Of a DNA stretch of 64,000 bases, positions 2,488 through 44,273 are shown in pieces. How positions within the stretch are numbered: the first letter of the stretch is position 1; the number at the start of each line of letters is the position of its first letter. This DNA is from Acinetobacter venetianus RAG-1 = CIP 110063 (lineage in GTDB: Bacteria; Pseudomonadota; Gammaproteobacteria; Pseudomonadales; Moraxellaceae). A model generated the notes under the pieces. That model worked only from the letters and a program-made list of their open reading frames with translations. It ran no database searches and was not told the origin of the DNA. The stretch lies in contig NZ_KB849557.1 in assembly GCF_000368585.1 (NCBI RefSeq), positions 725,615 to 789,614 of the forward strand, written 5' to 3'. A program made the position numbers and the translations under genes.

Positions 2488-2676
2488 ATGCAACAAGCCA
2501 TTGTTGGATTTCATCTCGATGAAGAGAACCATTGGGTTGCTGATCTCACTTGTGGTCATACGCAGCATGTACGTCATGACCCACCGTGGCAAAATCGCCC
2601 TTGGGTTTTGATGGAGCAAGGGCGTAAGGAAAAGTTAGGGGTGATGTTGGAATGTAAAAAGTGTGAGAAGAAGTGA
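2488..2676 (+). CDS. DUF3565 zinc-ribbon-like small protein
   Basis: A 62-residue cytoplasmic protein of the DUF3565 family, function unknown. It shows a pattern of possible metal ligands: C23 and H25 in DLTCGHTQHVRHDPPW, then CKKC near the C-terminus. The start codon follows the ohrR stop with no gap, so the two are co-transcribed and probably translationally coupled. The stop codon overlaps the first bases of the left XerC/XerD-like site (2675-2702), making this gene the last core gene before the accessory block. Confidence 0.85.
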   Translation: MQQAIVGFHLDEENHWVADLTCGHTQHVRHDPPWQNRPWVLMEQGRKEKLGVMLECKKCEKK

Positions 2677-2702
2677 TTCTCATAAGAGATTTTATGTTAA
2701 GT
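2675..2702 (+). other. Left XerC/XerD (dif-like) site of module 1
   Basis: A 28-bp site with the arrangement XerC half GATTCTCATAA (2675-2685), spacer GAGATT, XerD half TTATGTTAAGT (2692-2702). The XerD half differs at one base from TTATGTTAATT, the half-site at the right end of the module (5833-5843, read on the other strand). The XerC half is weaker and overlaps the stop codon of the DUF3565 gene. The site points in the opposite direction to the right-hand site at 5833-5860. Confidence 0.6.
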
Positions 2703-2843
2703 AAAAGACACAATATGTCGTGCTGAAAGTGATAAAAACTTGCCTAAAGACCCCAACATATAGAAAATATAAAGACTTAATAAGATTTTTTAGTTCATAA
2801 GTTAAACTTTGTTATTTTTTTTATAGAGGGTAGACTTACCATA

Positions 2844-3308
2844 ATGGTAACATATAGAATAATTAGTAGGTACAAAGAACTGGGCGATCTAGAAAATCTT
2901 CATGACGGTTTAGAAAAATCTCAGCTTTTTATTACCTCTAATAAATGCCCTCTTTATGACCCTAAAGAGATTTTAGAGAAGCTTAAGGATGACTCTTTTC
3001 GCTTTATTACTGCTACGCAGCAAAGTAGAAAAGACTTAACTTATCGTCTTCAAATAACTTTGCCATCAGATGTATCAAAATTAAGAGAGTTAGTACGTAT
3101 TGCTTTGACAAAGGGTAAGTATCTTAATTCGCAGTGGTGCAAAACCAGTGACGCAGTGTGGGCTGCTTGCGATTCATATAAATTTGAACATACCGAATAT
3201 ATTCAGAATGCTCATAAATATATGACTAGTGAGATCTATCTTAAGTTTGCTTTGAATAACAAAGGGCAAGCTTTATTGATAGTTTCAGCTCACCCTCCTA
3301 AAAACTGA
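2844..3308 (+). CDS. MqsR-like toxin of a toxin-antitoxin-chaperone operon
   Basis: Probable mRNA-cleaving toxin. The C-terminal strand region SEIYLKFALNNKGQALLIVS (129-148) resembles the QVYLKI...VLIVSF end of E. coli MqsR, including the tyrosine before LK (Y132). At 154 residues it is longer than E. coli MqsR (98), the extra length lying at the N-terminal side. The toxin-first order, with an MqsA-type antitoxin 25 bp downstream, supports the call. A GAGGG lies about 13 bases before the ATG, and the short dyad AAGTT-A-AACTT (2799-2809) is a possible antitoxin operator. Sequence match to MqsR is partial, so the exact toxin family is less certain than the operon type. Confidence 0.65.
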   Translation: MVTYRIISRYKELGDLENLHDGLEKSQLFITSNKCPLYDPKEILEKLKDDSFRFITATQQSRKDLTYRLQITLPSDVSKLRELVRIALTKGKYLNSQWCKTSDAVWAACDSYKFEHTEYIQNAHKYMTSEIYLKFALNNKGQALLIVSAHPPKN

Positions 3309-3333
3309 TTTCATAAGGTGTAAGGGGTTCGCC

Positions 3334-3915
3334 ATGTTAAATCATACTTGTGTAATGTGTGATGAAGGTCTACTTATAAAAAAAACAGTCATTGATAATG
3401 TAGATTTTAAAGGGCAAGTACTAAAAGTTCCGAATACTCATCTTGAATGTAACCTATGTGGTTGTATTGAATTAGATAATGAGTATATGAAAGTAAATAA
3501 TCGTGCTTTAAACATAGAGAAAAAGAAAGCGCTAGATTTATTTACTGGCTCGGAAATCAAGGAAATACGTGAAGGTTTAAGACTTTCTCAAACTGAAGCT
3601 AGTGCTATTTTTGGTGGTGGAAAGGTAGCTTTTTCTAAATATGAGAATGATGATGTTATTCAGTCAAAATCAATGAATACTTTGATTGGTGCAGCTAACA
3701 GAATTCCTGATCTACTCCCATATTTGGTATCTCAATCATCTTTATCAACTTCACCAAAGTTTCAAGGTGACTATGAAGATGTATATCTAGAAGAAGACTT
3801 TAATCCTTTAGTGGAATGCAAAAATAGACCAAGTATATTTGTAGTTGAAGCTTCTCAAGAATTTGATTCTGGAACAAATGGTTACACAGAACTTCAATGT
3901 GATGATGCTGCATGA
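3334..3915 (+). CDS. MqsA-like antitoxin with C-terminal extension
   Basis: Antitoxin and operon repressor. Residues 1-50 form a zinc-binding domain with CVMC (C6, C9) and CNLC (C39, C42). Residues 72-120 are an HTH with LSQTEASAIFGGGKVAFSKYE, very close to the MqsA motif of E. coli. E. coli MqsA stops at 131 residues; this protein runs to 193, adding an acidic, low-complexity tail (about 133-193). In toxin-antitoxin-chaperone systems such a tail is the chaperone-addiction segment that makes the antitoxin unstable unless its SecB-like partner binds it. AAGGGG precedes the ATG. The last four bases overlap the chaperone gene (ATGA). Confidence 0.85.
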   Translation: MLNHTCVMCDEGLLIKKTVIDNVDFKGQVLKVPNTHLECNLCGCIELDNEYMKVNNRALNIEKKKALDLFTGSEIKEIREGLRLSQTEASAIFGGGKVAFSKYENDDVIQSKSMNTLIGAANRIPDLLPYLVSQSSLSTSPKFQGDYEDVYLEEDFNPLVECKNRPSIFVVEASQEFDSGTNGYTELQCDDAA

Positions 3916-4391
3916 ATACAAATAAAAGAGATATTCTCAATCCTATAGATGAAGCTCTAGCTAACTTAGCTATTAAAGATATTTTTTTAAAATCAATGAA
4001 GTGTGAAAACTTCAAATTTGATATAGAGCTTTATCCAAACTCCGACTATAAAGTGCTTTTAAAGCATAAAGTAGTTAGATCTTCTATCTTAGAAAGCACT
4101 GATCATAAGCAACATTTATTAAGAGTATTGCTTAGTTACGGTGTTAAATGGGTTTCAAAAGAAGATCCTCAAGATGAATTAGCTGTTATTGAGGCTGAAT
4201 ATGTTGCTGAATATAAGCTGAAGCAAAAAATCTCTGATATGGCTATTGATGAGTTTTGTCTAAAAAATGTTGGTCATAATGTTTGGCCTTATTGGAGAGA
4301 ATTTGTTGCTACAACTTCTCAGAGATTAAATTTGCCAAATCTAACATTACCTTTGCAAAAACCAGTTAAAAAAAATTCGGATAAAAAATGA
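3912..4391 (+). CDS. SecB-like chaperone of the TA operon
   Basis: Predicted SecB-fold export chaperone dedicated to the adjacent antitoxin. The 159 residues match SecB length (155 in E. coli). The C-terminal part, with NVWPYWREFVATTSQRLNLP (123-142), lines up with the conserved NILFPYAREC...FPQLNL region of SecB. Overall similarity is low and it lacks the acidic zinc-type C-terminus of housekeeping SecB, ending instead in a lysine-rich tail. It overlaps the antitoxin gene by four bases and the next gene by four bases, so the set is translationally coupled. Role as antitoxin chaperone is inferred from family and position. Confidence 0.75.
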   Translation: MNTNKRDILNPIDEALANLAIKDIFLKSMKCENFKFDIELYPNSDYKVLLKHKVVRSSILESTDHKQHLLRVLLSYGVKWVSKEDPQDELAVIEAEYVAEYKLKQKISDMAIDEFCLKNVGHNVWPYWREFVATTSQRLNLPNLTLPLQKPVKKNSDKK

Positions 4392-4627
4392 AAAAAGCTA
4401 TTTTAATGTCTTTGTTGGGAATAACTTCAAGCACATTCGCAAGTAATGAAGCTACAAACTTTAATGTTGAAGATTTAACTTCGAATCAGTTAATTGAGTT
4501 AACTACAAAATGTACAAAAAATGATTATCAGGGATCTGCTTGTGAAGCATTAAGGAAGAAGCAGCTAGAAGACAGAGAACGTATGAAGCAGGAAGCAAGA
4601 GATACTATGAAGTATGCTCCAAAGTAA
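4388..4627 (+). CDS. Small secreted protein, fourth gene of the TA operon
   Basis: Not recognised. The 79-residue product begins with a clear signal peptide (MKKAILMSLLGITSSTFAS, cut expected near residue 19), leaving a mature protein of about 60 residues, highly charged at the C-terminus, with two cysteines (in TKCTKND and SACEAL) that could form a disulfide in the periplasm. Its ATG overlaps the chaperone stop codon (ATGA), so it belongs to the operon. A periplasmic partner in a TA-chaperone operon is unusual; it may simply be module cargo. Confidence 0.75.
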   Translation: MKKAILMSLLGITSSTFASNEATNFNVEDLTSNQLIELTTKCTKNDYQGSACEALRKKQLEDRERMKQEARDTMKYAPK

Positions 4628-4667
4628 TTTCTTATAACTCCTTGAATAGCCAACAAAGTTCTATACA

Positions 4668-4693
4668 TAAAAAACCACTTAAATAAGTGGTTT
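4668..4693. terminator. Bidirectional terminator between convergent genes
   Basis: AAAACCACTT and AAGTGGTTTT arms with a four-base loop, A-rich before and T-rich after, placed between the TA operon (plus strand) and the DUF4145 gene (minus strand). Confidence 0.8.
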
Positions 4694-4713
4694 TATTTTG
4701 AAGGATTAATAGC

Positions 4714-5415
4714 TCATTGTACTTTTATGGCTTTTTTGTGATCTCGGATTTGCTGAATACGAGACAATTTCGAATCTCTTTCATGTCTTGCGATGTACCA
4801 TTCTTCGAATAAAATTTCTAACATTTCTATCAAAATTTTTGCTTCATCAGACTCTACATCAACAATTACATTAATATCTTTTTCCATATGAGCACCAATA
4901 TTGCCGATCTCTCTGACAGCATTTAAAGATTCCCATACTTGCTCAGTTACTTTACCTTCTAAAGCATTTATCTCTTTATATAAAGTTGTATCGGTGATTT
5001 CCCAATAGTCTCTAATCATCCCTTGTAAACATCGTCTTGCTAATGTTGCAGAAGCCTTTGGACTTAAATCACTAATAGCACAAGCTTCATTGTAATCATT
5101 TAAAATAGGTTCAGGGATATAGCTTGGAAATGGTTTTGCATGGCTATGAGGTAAAAGCGTCCATTTATGAATATAATCATTCTGATTATCAGGTTCTGTA
5201 TAAGGGTATTCAGAATAATTTGTGCTCTTATAAAGATAAGAGTTTATCGTTATTTCTTCACACTCAGCATTAGGACAAACAATAACTATGGACTTAAGTC
5301 CTAACTTATTTTTATATTTATTAGATAAACCGAATGAATGAGTTTGATAATCAAAATTTTTATCCCCAATAGTACATTTGTGATTACAGTAAGGACATGT
5401 CCATCTAAAGCTCAT
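4714..5415 (-). CDS. DUF4145 domain-containing protein
   Basis: Conserved protein of unknown function, about 233 residues from the ATG at 5415. It starts with a zinc-ribbon-like segment (CPYCNHKC, then CPNAEC) and has the DUF4145 core SPKASATLARRCLQGMIRDYW, followed by a helical stretch with NIGAHMEKD. DUF4145 proteins are often found near restriction or other defence genes, which fits the accessory setting but does not prove a defence role. An in-frame TTG at 5439 with AGAGGAGTT only three bases upstream is an alternative start; the ATG has AGG at six bases. AT-rich like the rest of the module. Confidence 0.8.
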   Translation of the reverse strand: MSFRWTCPYCNHKCTIGDKNFDYQTHSFGLSNKYKNKLGLKSIVIVCPNAECEEITINSYLYKSTNYSEYPYTEPDNQNDYIHKWTLLPHSHAKPFPSYIPEPILNDYNEACAISDLSPKASATLARRCLQGMIRDYWEITDTTLYKEINALEGKVTEQVWESLNAVREIGNIGAHMEKDINVIVDVESDEAKILIEMLEILFEEWYIARHERDSKLSRIQQIRDHKKAIKVQ

Positions 5416-5491
5416 AAAATACCTAAAAAATATATTCAATAACTCCTCTAATTATAAATAAAATTAGTAACTTATAAAATAATTTTTGTAG

Positions 5492-5497
5492 TATAAT
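5492..5497 (+). promoter_or_regulatory. Candidate -10 element for the 32-residue peptide gene
   Basis: A perfect TATAAT lies 70 bases before the peptide ATG. Transcription starting about seven bases downstream would begin at or next to the TGAGGCTCCTT element (5504-5514). No good -35 hexamer was seen at 17 bases. Confidence 0.4.
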
Positions 5498-5503
5498 AAT
5501 TCT

Positions 5504-5678
5504 TGAGGCTCCTTAGTTTTTCTTTGTGAATTACACATTTCGTAACCACAAAAGGAGCTAGCCATGAAAGCAAAAACAGTCAATGTTCGAGCTTATTGTA
5601 GATATCGTTTAGGGAAGTGGGAGGATGTGTGTAAACACAAACGATCACCACCTACACGGTAATTGAAAAGGAGCCTCA
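5504..5678 (+). promoter_or_regulatory. Leader and inverted repeat that may control peptide translation
   Basis: TGAGGCTCCTT at 5504-5514 is exactly complementary to AAGGAGCCTCA at 5668-5678, just after the peptide stop codon. Its GCTCCTT part can instead pair for seven bases with the ribosome binding site AAGGAGC (5552-5558). The mRNA could thus hold the ribosome site closed or, with the full transcript made, pair the leader with the 3' copy and free it. The pairings are visible; the switch is inferred. Confidence 0.45.
5564..5662 (+). CDS. 32-residue basic peptide
   Basis: A short gene with ATG at 5564 and a strong ribosome site AAAGGAGC six bases upstream (5551-5558). The product starts MKAKTVNVRAYCRYRLG and ends CKHKRSPPTR; it is strongly basic with two cysteines and no membrane segment. 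The strong Shine-Dalgarno, the TATAAT upstream and the flanking inverted repeat argue that it is expressed. Function unknown; I recall similar short basic peptides being predicted in Acinetobacter but cannot verify this. A DNA- or RNA-binding role would fit the charge (inference). Confidence 0.5.
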   Translation: MKAKTVNVRAYCRYRLGKWEDVCKHKRSPPTR

Positions 5679-5832
5679 CCTAATTTTTTAATAAACGATA
5701 CATATCAAAGAAATTTTAAAAATCTAATTATCAATTTTCCAATCAAATCTTCTTCTTACTAAGTCTTTAAATAGCCCAACTTTTGGTTGAATTTTTAGGA
5801 TTCTGTCGCATTAAGAAGTTAAGATTTTCTAA

Positions 5833-5860
5833 AATTAACATAATACGCCTTATGCGTAAT
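5833..5860 (-). other. Right XerC/XerD (pdif-like) site of module 1
   Basis: A 28-bp site read on the plus strand as XerD half AATTAACATAA (5833-5843), spacer TACGCC, XerC half TTATGCGTAAT (5850-5860). On the minus strand the XerD half is TTATGTTAATT, the consensus half of Acinetobacter pdif sites as I know them. It is inverted relative to 2675-2702. The same XerD half and spacer recur at 44246-44273. Confidence 0.75.
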
Positions 5861-6003
5861 GCTTAAAGTTTTCCTATAAGCATCAATATCTTAGTCTAAG
5901 ACGTTCTAGGGTTCAGCGCACTGGAACGGCTTTTTCGTGATCTTTCACGTTCCACGCTTATTTTTTAATCATTATTTTCAATAATTTATTAACTCAACTA
6001 AAC

Positions 6004-6030
6004 AAAAAGGAAGCCTTCGCTTCCTTTTTT
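6004..6030. terminator. Terminator downstream of pyrE
   Basis: AAAAGGAAGC and GCTTCCTTTT arms with a short CTTC loop, flanked by A and T runs, so it works for the minus-strand pyrE transcript and in the other direction. Confidence 0.85.
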
Positions 6031-6046
6031 CATTTACACCTAAAAC

Positions 6047-6697
6047 TTAGATACCATATTTTTCACGATACGCCTGCATATTTGCCAATGCTTCTTTCTC
6101 GCCTTTTGCATCCAAATAATCCATCAAATCTTTCATCGTGATTAAAGCATGCACTGGGATTTCGAGTTCTTTTTGTACTTCCTGAATCGCAGAAAGCTCA
6201 CCTTGACCACGCTCTTGACGATCTAGTGCCACTAATACCCCTGCAATCGTTGCACCAGCATTTTTTAAGATGGTCACTACTTCACGAATCGCAGTCCCCG
6301 CAGTGATCACATCATCAATGATCCACACTTTTTGACCTGCAACCGATGCACCAACCAACACACCACCTTCACCATGATCTTTAGCTTCTTTACGGTTAAA
6401 ACCCCAAGGAACGCTCTTGCCATGTACTTGAGACAACGCCACCGCAGTCGCCGCAACAAAAGGAATACCTTTATATGCAGGACCAAAAATCACACCAACA
6501 TTGTCACACTGAACCAATTTATCGGCATAGCCTTGTGCTAATAAAGATAGCGCTTCGCCATCGTTTAACAAACCTGCGTTAAAGAAATAAGGACTGACAC
6601 GGCCTGATTTTAAGGTAAACTCACCAAATTTAAGCACTCCACGTGATAATGCGAGTTCGATAAAAGCTTGCGGATGAAATGACACAGGCGTTGTCAT
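6047..6697 (-). CDS. pyrE: Orotate phosphoribosyltransferase
   Basis: Converts orotate and PRPP to orotidine 5'-phosphate, the fifth step of pyrimidine synthesis. From the ATG at 6697 (GGAG eight bases upstream) the product has 216 residues, close to E. coli PyrE (213). It has the flexible catalytic loop region [10 protein letters not shown] and the PRPP-binding motif [15 protein letters not shown] longer reading to 6793 exists but adds 32 residues unlike the family and overlaps the divergent exonuclease gene. Divergent from xthA with only about 40 bp between start codons, so the promoters must overlap the opposite coding regions. Confidence 0.95.
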
Positions 6698-6738
6698 ATA
6701 AGGTGCTCCAAATTCTTCAATTGAGGTTAAACAGACGT

Positions 6739-7563
6739 ATGATACCAAAGGATAGCTATCCAAGTGATGTAAAAATTCTTCGAGTCGTTTCAATTAACGT
6801 AAATGGCTTGCGCGCATCAGTCACCAAAGGCTTGCTCGAATGGTTAGAACAGTCTGGTGCCGATGTGGTATGTATGCAAGAAAGCCGCATTACCCACGAA
6901 CAATGGACTGATAAATTTAAACCTGAAGGTTGGTACACTCACCTCTTCCCTGCTGAACGTGCAGGCTATGCAGGTACGGCGATTTATAGCCGCTTGCCCT
7001 TTGTCTCAGTCAAAGATGGTTTAGGTTTTGAGCTTGCGGACTCTCAAGGTCGTTTTGTTACTGCAGAATTTGATTTAGGACTGTCACATCCTGTTCATAT
7101 TGCTTCTTTATACTTGCCATCAGGTTCAAGTGGTGATGAAGCACAAGCACGCAAAGATTTATTTCTACAAGAATATGCCAAAATACTAAAACAATGGCGA
7201 GATGAAAATAAATCAATCATTGTGTGTGGTGACTACAATATCGTACACAAGCGTATCGATATTAAAAACTGGTCAGGCAACCAAAAGTCATCAGGTGTTT
7301 TGCCGCATGAACGTGCATGGCTCGACCATATTTATGATGAGTTAGGTTATGTCGACACCTTCCGTGAGGTACGACCTGAAGCTGAATTGTATTCATGGTG
7401 GTCAAATCGTGGTCAAGCGCGTGCGAAAAATGTAGGTTGGCGTATCGACTACCATGCTTGCTCGCCAGACTGGAAATCGCGTACCAAAAACGCATGGGTC
7501 TATAAAGAACAATGGTTTAGTGACCATGCACCCGTGATTATCGACTATAAAATACACGAATAA
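6739..7563 (+). CDS. xthA: Exodeoxyribonuclease III family protein
   Basis: Endonuclease/exonuclease/phosphatase-fold enzyme that cuts DNA at abasic sites and removes 3' blocks during base-excision repair. From ATG 6739 it has 274 residues. Family motifs are SINVNGLR (N-terminus), [21 protein letters not shown] (metal and catalytic residues) and the C-terminal [10 protein letters not shown] with the catalytic histidine. The same family includes Crc, the carbon-catabolite protein of pseudomonads, which lacks nuclease activity; the intact catalytic residues favour a nuclease here. An in-frame ATG at 6679 would overlap pyrE and is less likely. Confidence 0.88.
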
Positions 7564-43789: not shown

Positions 43790-43817
43790 GTTCCGCATAA
43801 CGGCCATTATGTTAAAT
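43790..43817 (+). other. Left XerC/XerD (dif-like) site of module 2
   Basis: XerC half GTTCCGCATAA (43790-43800), spacer CGGCCA, XerD half TTATGTTAAAT (43807-43817). The XerD half equals that of E. coli dif. It points in the same direction as 2675-2702 and opposite to 44246-44273. Confidence 0.6.
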
Positions 43818-43826
43818 GGTATTCAT

Positions 43827-44201
43827 TTATCGTTTAATCACATCATTAGGAGTTAAATAAATTTCTGATTCTTCACCTTGCACAGTAGCTTTTAATTTTT
43901 TTGATATATCAATCATTTTACCAATAGCTTCAGGTGTTGGATTTTTCGTTAGTAAGTCACAAGAGTTACGGTCATACCATAAAGAAAACTCTTGTGCATC
44001 AATGGATACAAGAAAGTCTTCTTCTGAATTTTGAAGATCTATCGTTACTGTTGAGTCTGTTTTTAAATATGTGTTCCATTCTTGTTTAGTAATACATTCT
44101 CCATCATTAAAATAAAACTCTTTTTTTGTTATATACATATTATAGCCAGCATAGGTAATTGGGCTAATCATTAAAAGGACAGGAATAATAAATTTTAACA
44201 T
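43827..44201 (-). CDS. Unknown membrane or secreted protein in dif module 2
   Basis: Not recognised. 124 residues, N-terminal hydrophobic segment MLKFIIPVLLMISPITYAG that is either a signal peptide or a single anchor, then an acidic soluble part with a cysteine pair (GECIT and NSCDLL) and ending LTPNDVIKR. Its DNA is AT-rich like module 1. AGAGA lies about 12 bases before the ATG, a weak ribosome site. It is the sole cargo of the small module; an exported toxin, immunity or surface role cannot be told from the sequence. Confidence 0.7.
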   Translation of the reverse strand: MLKFIIPVLLMISPITYAGYNMYITKKEFYFNDGECITKQEWNTYLKTDSTVTIDLQNSEEDFLVSIDAQEFSLWYDRNSCDLLTKNPTPEAIGKMIDISKKLKATVQGEESEIYLTPNDVIKR

Positions 44202-44245: not shown

Positions 44246-44273
44246 AATTAACATAATACGCCTTATACAAAAT
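44246..44273 (-). other. Right XerC/XerD (pdif-like) site of module 2
   Basis: On the plus strand XerD half AATTAACATAA (44246-44256), spacer TACGCC, XerC half TTATACAAAAT (44263-44273). XerD half and spacer are identical to the site at 5833-5860, and identity extends a few bases to the left; the XerC half differs at four places. Confidence 0.75.

Follow-up and report, generated by a model that had tools for sequence, protein, structure and literature searches.

A DUF3565-pyrE interval of Acinetobacter chromosomes that probably imitates the cargo slot of Rep_3/OrfX-type plasmids

Introduction

How does a block of DNA bounded by two inverted XerC/XerD-like sites, with no recognized recombinase gene of its own, come to lie between a DUF3565 gene and pyrE in Acinetobacter venetianus RAG-1 = CIP 110063? 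The block belongs to a stretch of 64,000 nucleotides (contig NZ_KB849557.1, positions 725,615 to 789,614), hereafter the window, which falls on contig 2 of a 3.46-Mb, 5-contig genome and is probably Acinetobacter chromosome. We find that the same layout recurs in relatives, that similarity stops at the XerD arms of the sites, and that the cargo between them mostly differs. Our reading, to which we assign a probability of roughly 0.7, is that the interval between DUF3565 and pyrE is a dock in the chromosome, an imitation of the slot in which Rep_3/OrfX-type plasmids carry their cargo.

Both chromosomal dif modules and their exchange between plasmids have been published before. The available text of PMC6449649 (2019), in which sites are counted per chromosome, reports additional chromosomal dif sites in all but one of 20 chromosomes, and that of PMC12907356 describes the dif modules of strain M10 and a one-strain island with resistance genes. 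An earlier, sequence-only reading of the window had presented the chromosomal dif module as a notable find, but its kind is already represented in these two sources. The DUF3565-pyrE interval shares with what they describe a chromosomal position away from the main dif site and a plasmid-like character; it differs from what the same portions describe in being one slot across species, with differing cargo and a flank that resembles plasmid backbone. Among the papers listed for dif modules, pyrE, defence, hotspots, and restriction-modification (R-M), titles and abstract openings contain no fixed two-site, defence-enriched chromosomal dock.

Results and discussion

Two inverted Xer-type sites bound the block

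For scoring we derived a position matrix from 13 published dif and plasmid dif (pdif) sites, with the spacer left unscored, and took a score of at least 15 to mark a site. By this measure the window holds four sites only (2675, 5833, 43790, and 44246), and 20 dinucleotide shuffles of its 64 kb gave a maximum of 13.2, far below either site that bounds the block (Table 1). The two lie exactly where the sequence-only reading had placed them, and direct reading of their letters bears out its description of inward-facing XerD halves that differ at one base. Each is 28 bp long with an unbroken ATAA-spacer-TTAT core, and their inverse orientation, XerD arms inward, is the layout of a D module; we refer to the left site as A type and to the right site as B type. 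When the whole genome was searched for the dif pattern with at most one mismatch, 6 places were found, four of which are the sites of the window; one of the other two is the probable main dif described below. A lone pdif-like site with spacer GCTGTG lies elsewhere in this genome (G000), at 144923-144944 of contig 5 (L006; labels of the form G### denote genomes of the genus and their loci, and L### individual sequence stretches, including plasmids).

Two further features of the sequence-only reading were confirmed: the block is AT-rich (GC ~0.29-0.34, against ~0.34-0.44 in adjoining stretches, in 500-base windows), and no recombinase family was matched among its scanned open reading frames (ORFs) in Pfam, PADLOC, or NCBIfam. 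An Rfam scan of the window at gathering cut-offs gave no match. The exact A core, ATAAGAGATTTTATGTTAA, is present in 85 of 149 genomes of the genus, many of the listed places having coordinates that suggest small contigs, and the right site is identical at 28/28 positions to the site at 5252-5279 of L104, the Acinetobacter baumannii plasmid pA52-3.

We rejected the right site as the main dif because another site, with spacer TGTATA, probably has that role; it is found on another contig of the window genome and matched once in each of 12 genomes. XerC/XerD-type sites around a block without a recognized recombinase gene could also suggest an integrative mobile element exploiting Xer (IMEX) that has integrated into dif. 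Insertion of an IMEX at dif yields direct repeats at the terminus. The window sites instead have different spacers and stand in inverse orientation, and six single-contig relatives carry the dock far from the main dif, at 0.87-0.99 of the greatest distance possible. We regard this origin as highly improbable.

The layout recurs in relatives and the cargo changes at the sites

We compared 149 genomes of the genus, one per species. The DUF3565 gene is matched in 106 and pyrE in 148; the two share a contig in 94 genomes and are convergent with a gap below 20 kb in 89, of which 88, including that of the window, were fetched. In these 89 the gap ranges from 237 bp to 19.7 kb with a median of 2.4 kb, and a relative of the toxin encoded in the block occurs in 3/149 genomes, one of them the window's own. 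The block is thus neither present everywhere nor constant in size, in line with the sequence-only view of it as an exchanged module.

The 88 loci carry 53 sites in 359 kb, with none in 59 loci, one in 9, two in 16, and three in 4, so that any dif-like site is present in 29/88 gaps and an inward pair in 20/88. In 18 loci DUF3565 has a left site at its 3' end, most commonly with spacer GAGATT (hand count); the XerD arm of this site is mostly TTATGTTAAAT or one base off, though degenerate in G079. In 11 loci (hand count) a distance of 151-211 bp separates the pyrE match from the end of the right site, whose XerD arm is TTATGTTAATT or close to it.

Pairwise identity falls away at the XerD arms. 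Across 17 loci chosen for a site on the left (G079 omitted; 136 pairs), identity rises from 0.66-0.75 over the outer flank and XerC arm to 0.97 at the XerD arm and drops to 0.30 directly inward of it. For the 12 loci chosen on the right (66 pairs), values outside the site are 0.28-0.50, and the XerC and XerD arms reach 0.79 and 0.97, respectively. Further inward identity stands at 0.29-0.32, and the 18 bases next to the site reach 0.54 and 0.74; a TTAG extension considered below lies in this region. Since similarity drops to background just inside the XerD arms, the cargo changes at the sites.

These values bear directly on a rival explanation, in which the cargo is exchanged by homologous recombination through the core-gene flanks and a 145-bp right flank while the sites are passengers of old plasmid insertions. 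The conserved left flank, the homology of the 145 bp to plasmids, and the variation of gap size also in the 59 siteless loci are in its favor. Such exchange does not predict that similarity should break at the XerD arms on both sides, nor that these arms should be 0.97 identical beside unrelated cargo, and the left flank, through which it would act, is unmatched on Acinetobacter plasmids: among plasmids, blastn with 2400-2674 gave a single weak match, in Microvirga. We consider this explanation unlikely, even with the additional point in its favor that an unusual XerC arm, discussed below, is common to one dock (G011) and a plasmid.

Less probable still is that the locus is a single ancient plasmid remnant, now inert, at which the differences between species arose by deletion and by later insertions of other elements. 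G024 and G077 show degenerate look-alikes of the left site, two copies of a probable transposase ORF flank the module of G028, and the backbone-like flank does look like a scar. Against an inert remnant stand the 20 loci with inward pairs and mostly unrelated cargo, together with the close plasmid copy of a segment of the G011 dock.

The flank and the order of sites match a plasmid cargo slot

Compared with plasmids at E 1e-5, the 145 bp that separate the right site from the pyrE terminator matched 702 records, among them 242 from Acinetobacter and 277 from Klebsiella, with 59 covering 80% of the query. Seven of 11 plasmid stretches tested are matched, in a non-random sample for which L109-L111 were chosen from matches to the flank itself. 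On L104, L107, L109, L110, and L111 the match directly adjoins a B-type pdif site on its outer side, extending over 111 bp on L104 and L107; matches to L105 and L106 are weak and partial, and L103, L108, L134, and L135 are unmatched. Within ~160 bp of the flank match on L107, L109, L110, and L111, and ~850 bp beyond it on L104, comes a gene with the annotation 'plasmid replication DNA-binding protein', taken to be the OrfX of PMC13141974. A-type sites with spacer GAGATT are found on L103, L106, L108, L109, L110, and L111, and in our reading the positions of those on L106, L109, L110, and L111 would fit the opposite backbone end.

Several Rep_3/OrfX-type plasmids hold their cargo between an A-type pdif, often with spacer GAGATT, and a B-type pdif (spacer GGTGTA or GGCGTA, for example) next to which ~145 bp of backbone begin. 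In the chromosome, DUF3565 ends at an A site, which is followed by cargo, a B site, 145 bp, and pyrE. With the same site types and flank in the same order, the locus resembles a plasmid cargo slot. The backbone-like flank is found at 22/29 site-bearing loci but only 3/59 siteless ones (Fisher 9e-12; kinship ignored). The sequence-only reading had described the block as lying between core genes; the DNA that adjoins the right site is plasmid-like. The locus is not a complete integrated Rep_3/OrfX plasmid: the stretch from the right site to pyrE contains no replication gene or OrfX, only the 145 bp of backbone-like DNA, and is read as a remnant.

The D modules that PMC13141974 describes on such plasmids share several traits with the window block, namely inverse 28-bp sites of two types with XerD arms inward, no recognized recombinase, frequent toxin-antitoxin (TA) cargo, and a B site that adjoins the end of the backbone. 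The window locus differs from them in being chromosomal, between host genes and without a replicon, and in that the cargo of such loci is often phage defence.

The cargo has relatives on plasmids

By gene order, the first three genes of the block form a predicted toxin-antitoxin-chaperone (TAC) operon. The sequence-only reading had recognized this layout as the cargo, and it stands; what it overlooked is that a DUF4145 gene is cargo too (Table 1).

Table 1. Features of the block, its neighbors, and the second dock, in window coordinates.
Feature	Positions	Strand	Basis
DUF3565 gene, left neighbor	2488-2676	+	Pfam PF12088 E 1.3e-31; stop codon overlaps left site
Left dif-like site, A type	2675-2702	+	GATTCTCATAA-GAGATT-TTATGTTAAGT; matrix score 22.1
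Putative TAC toxin, 154 aa	2844-3308	+	Assigned by position; plasmid homologs 28-57% identity, same gene order
MqsA-type antitoxin with C-terminal extension	3334-3915	+	PF15731 E 1.4e-17, residues 5-128 of 193; TIGR03830 E 2.4e-28
SecB-like TAC chaperone	3912-4391	+	PADLOC PD-T4-9_C (CmdC) E 7.2e-7; Pfam SecB 0.017, below cut-off
79-aa small protein, probable signal peptide (by eye)	4388-4627	+	Listed ORF
DUF4145, PD-T7-4-like protein	4714-5439	-	PF13643 E 6e-14; PADLOC PD-T7-4 E 1.5e-12; listed ORF limits, true start may be further in
Right dif-like site, B type	5833-5860	-	ATTACGCATAA-GGCGTA-TTATGTTAATT, TTAG next inward; matrix score 27.2
Plasmid-backbone-like stretch, 145 bp	5861-6005		81.5-86.5% identity to L104, L107, L109, L110, and L111
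pyrE, right neighbor	6047-6793	-	Name from sequence-only reading; match in 148/149 genus genomes; listed ORF limits, true start may be further in
Second dock left site, A type	43790-43817	+	Spacer CGGCCA; matrix score 26.7
Second dock cargo, 124 aa, probable signal peptide (by eye)	43827-44201	-	Listed ORF
Second dock right site, B type	44246-44273	-	Spacer GGCGTA; matrix score 29.4; 55 bp from psd match

Cargo of the same kind was found between pdif sites on plasmids, as the sequence-only reading had expected. Plasmids L106 (A. haemolyticus), L108 (A. bereziniae), and L107 (Acinetobacter sp. 10FS3-1) each have a TAC operon with an A site on one side and a B site on the other. On L104 the B site identical to the right site of the window lies downstream of the TAC operon, but neither L104 nor L105 showed an A site directly to the left of its operon. 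A larger plasmid, L100, has a TAC operon with a weak site (19.0) on the left and insertion sequence (IS) genes on the right. The plasmid toxins are 28-31% identical to the window toxin in the L104-L108 group and 57% in L100, and judged by sequence these operons appear to be relatives of the window module, not recent copies.

A closer link was found at another dock. In G011, an R-M segment is 93.2% identical over 2,615 bp to the A. junii plasmid pKO16_MAC, starting from base 1 of the left site, and 89.7% identical over 2,038 bp to A. baumannii plas3_LRB. This segment, which lies between sites of the same orientation, sits within an outer inward pair. Taken together, the common site types, cargo type, and outer flank, with the 93% plasmid segment of G011, support the exchange of modules between plasmid and chromosome that the sequence-only reading had proposed.

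The toxin itself had no match in Pfam, PADLOC, or NCBIfam and no significant sequence match in the PDB, and an MqsR match was absent from Pfam and NCBIfam at E up to 1. Its relatives numbered none in viral contigs and one in genome contigs (36%, Colwellia), and a single-sequence structure model, at pLDDT 35, was too low in confidence for use. The antitoxin, in which ~65 residues extend past the MqsA match, matched no PADLOC model. The 79-aa protein has no match in Pfam or NCBIfam; small genes occupy the same place, by position only, on plasmids pA52-3 and pAS59-1. The PD-T7-4 model spans residues 10-214 of the 241 of the DUF4145 protein. Between this gene and the right site, at 5489-5693, an ORF of ~32 codons (from ~5564) sits between the inverted-repeat arms AGGCTCCTT and AAGGAGCCT; the stretch 5480-5700 has matches in 3/149 genomes, the window's own included, and the two others are partial.

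Defence genes are enriched at the dock

PADLOC matches were counted as defence at an E cut-off of 1e-10, by which 11/20 inward pairs carry defence cargo. The window pair has PD-T7-4 beside the TAC operon, and the others carry AbiL/RloAB-type (G094, G137, and G028), PD-T4-4 (G110), HpaII-type R-M (G079), type II R-M (G064, G003, and G011), Septu (G095), and ATPase-Toprim-type (G141) systems. Among the pairs without a PADLOC match, G107 and G021 have metabolic or regulatory cargo, G077 a GNAT protein, and G067 a DUF6500 protein; G117, G056, G055, and G136 have no assigned family, and G087 has no ORF of 60 aa. Different defence systems thus occupy the place between the same neighbors in different genomes, which makes the interval a defence hotspot. 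Like other defence hotspots and islands it has fixed neighbors and varying systems; unlike them, it has Xer-type sites at its borders, with no integrase or transposase recognized in most of the modules scanned.

At the level of proteins, 19/36 dock proteins are matched, compared with at most 7/72 representatives from siteless loci and at most 4/54 background ORFs of the window (Fisher 2e-6 and 3e-6, respectively; kinship ignored), the control counts being maxima because several families may match one member. The sets also differ in composition: dock ORFs of at least 60 aa from 19 loci, 138 siteless-locus ORFs of at least 100 aa collapsed by similarity to 72, and background ORFs of at least 120 aa; six small dock ORFs (three in G011, one in G067, and the 79-aa and ~32-codon ORFs of the window) lay outside the PADLOC scan. 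Siteless loci hold defence genes as well, as 3/72 of their representatives match prokaryotic viperin models. As read from the sequences, three siteless gaps (L034, L035, and L036, from G085, G041, and G088) appear to hold the three viperin matches.

The sequence-only reading had taken the cargo for stability genes. The chaperone and PD-T7-4 matches and the enrichment at the dock favor anti-phage defence instead. The window operon has the adjacent toxin, antitoxin, and SecB-like chaperone of CmdTAC and MqsRAC, and an MqsA-type antitoxin as in MqsRAC, as far as the available text of PMC9519451 and PMC11618068 describes them; it departs from both in that its toxin matches no family, and its role against phages would be by analogy. 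In CmdTAC the toxin, CmdT, is an ADP-ribosyltransferase. The cargo could alternatively be a plasmid-addiction or general stress TA system with no part in phage defence, a possibility that is somewhat unlikely. An MqsA-type antitoxin would suit it, and in the consulted part of PMC13141974 most r3-T5 plasmids had a dif module with TA genes. It accounts less well for a chaperone that fits a defence-system model, for the PD-T7-4-like gene beside the operon, and for the enrichment of defence matches at the dock, and both CmdTAC and an unrelated MqsRAC protect Escherichia coli against phages, according to the accessible part of PMC9519451. On GR13 plasmids, the available text of PMC9455709 reports R-M genes and a BREX segment, the latter not part of a dif module.

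How the dock would work, and what weighs against it

We infer Xer catalysis at the 2675 and 5833 sites, the direction of transfer, and phage defence by the window cargo from the pattern described above. The dock may be the scar of an old plasmid integration. Host XerC/XerD would join plasmid and chromosome at one matched site to form a cointegrate, and resolution at the other site would leave the module swapped; exchange of single modules by such a cointegrate and its resolution has been proposed in PMC13141974, in which module-pair inversion and loss are also described for a plasmid, given spacers that match fully or almost fully (available part of the text). The excerpted text of PMC11705084 reports that plasmid sites of A. 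baumannii do not recombine in the absence of XerC, that recombination between them requires closely related central regions, that a plasmid site diverging in the ATAA-spacer-TTAT core is poorly recognized, and that deletion between inverted sites with different central regions went unseen; it also discusses the FtsK activation region opposite the origin. Inverted sites with different spacers would accordingly be expected to block simple loss or inversion of the cargo, and distance from the main dif may keep FtsK-activated recombination rare enough for extra sites to be tolerated. During infection, loss of the chaperone or antitoxin would free the toxin, with the PD-T7-4-like protein acting alongside.

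In E. coli, FtsK activation of Xer is concentrated opposite the origin. Several observations weigh against a dock of this kind, and the first is its position far from the main dif, which speaks against frequent FtsK-dependent action. No empty locus with a single dif-like site, which the sequence-only reading had hoped to find, exists among the 88: the six shortest gaps (237-391 bp) are siteless, and gaps with one site measure at least 982 bp. For this reason we abandoned the idea that a module had been inserted into one ancestral dif site. The outer right flank is conserved only moderately across loci (0.28-0.50), the backbone-like flank is missing from 7/29 site-bearing loci, and kinship among the genomes means that locus counts are not independent. 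The 145 bp may have moved from chromosome to plasmid, and, being common to both, could permit one RecA exchange. Spacers vary between docks, which implies that some pairs would be incompatible.

The plasmid comparisons are also less direct than the dock reading would wish. The best plasmid match to the window cargo DNA is 67-69% over 53-59% of the query, with no close copy, and of five dock stretches compared with plasmids one gave a good match, one a methyltransferase gene only, one ~40 bp at a site end, and two nothing. The R-M segment common to G011 and pKO16_MAC lies between same-orientation sites on both molecules and is therefore no plain D module. Moreover, the odd XerC arm of G011, ATTTCGTAGAT, which falls within the DUF3565 frame, is also present on that plasmid, without the DUF3565 flank; as a plain Xer crossover keeps the XerC arm with its own flank, this sharing is unexpected. 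The two copies of the arm are at L134 6572-6599 and in the left site of L066, with unrelated outer flanks.

If the dock reading is true, a plasmid-matched slot and a housekeeping recombinase would provide a concrete route for the turnover of anti-phage genes in a clinically weighty genus, and a purpose would be suggested for some of the extra dif-like sites reported in Acinetobacter chromosomes in 2019.

A second dock and the TTAG extension

A second inward pair, overlooked by the sequence-only reading, lies 38 kb from the first between two genes that we take, from their sequences, to be a LysR-type gene and psd. Its 124-aa protein has no match in NCBIfam, PADLOC, or Pfam. Among 21 LysR-psd gaps, 9 have sites, and in 7 the right site lies 48-60 bp from psd; the cargo in relatives includes a methyltransferase with an MspI-type endonuclease (G071) and a DNA methyltransferase with an unmatched neighbor (G119). 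The B sites of the two window docks are alike in spacer and XerD arm and stand in direct orientation 38.4 kb apart; because recombination between them would delete the pyrE segment, Xer activity here should be rare.

B-type ends carry a further signature. Of 820 matches to ATAA-N6-TTATGTTAATT in the 149 genomes, 688 (84%) continue inward with TTAG, whereas the reversed control pattern gave 29 matches (hand count) in the shorter form and none in the longer. In a sample of the family, the longer TTAG pattern was present in 109/299 genomes, which by our own split are 106/126 within the genus and 3/173 in other genera. The A-type sites read here have no TTAG continuation, and TTAG occurs 0 times in PMC13141974, the single paper checked. 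We put forward, tentatively and at less than even odds, the wider proposal that fixed two-site Xer docks copy the Rep_3 slot, that the plasmid pool serves as an anti-phage library swapped without an integrase, and that TTAG marks the module end.

The DUF3565-pyrE and LysR-psd intervals are two named loci at which strains can be cassette-typed. In G028 (L087 and L128), two inverted copies of a 457-aa ORF, probably a transposase gene, flank the first-dock module, and two copies of the same ORF also flank the second-dock module.

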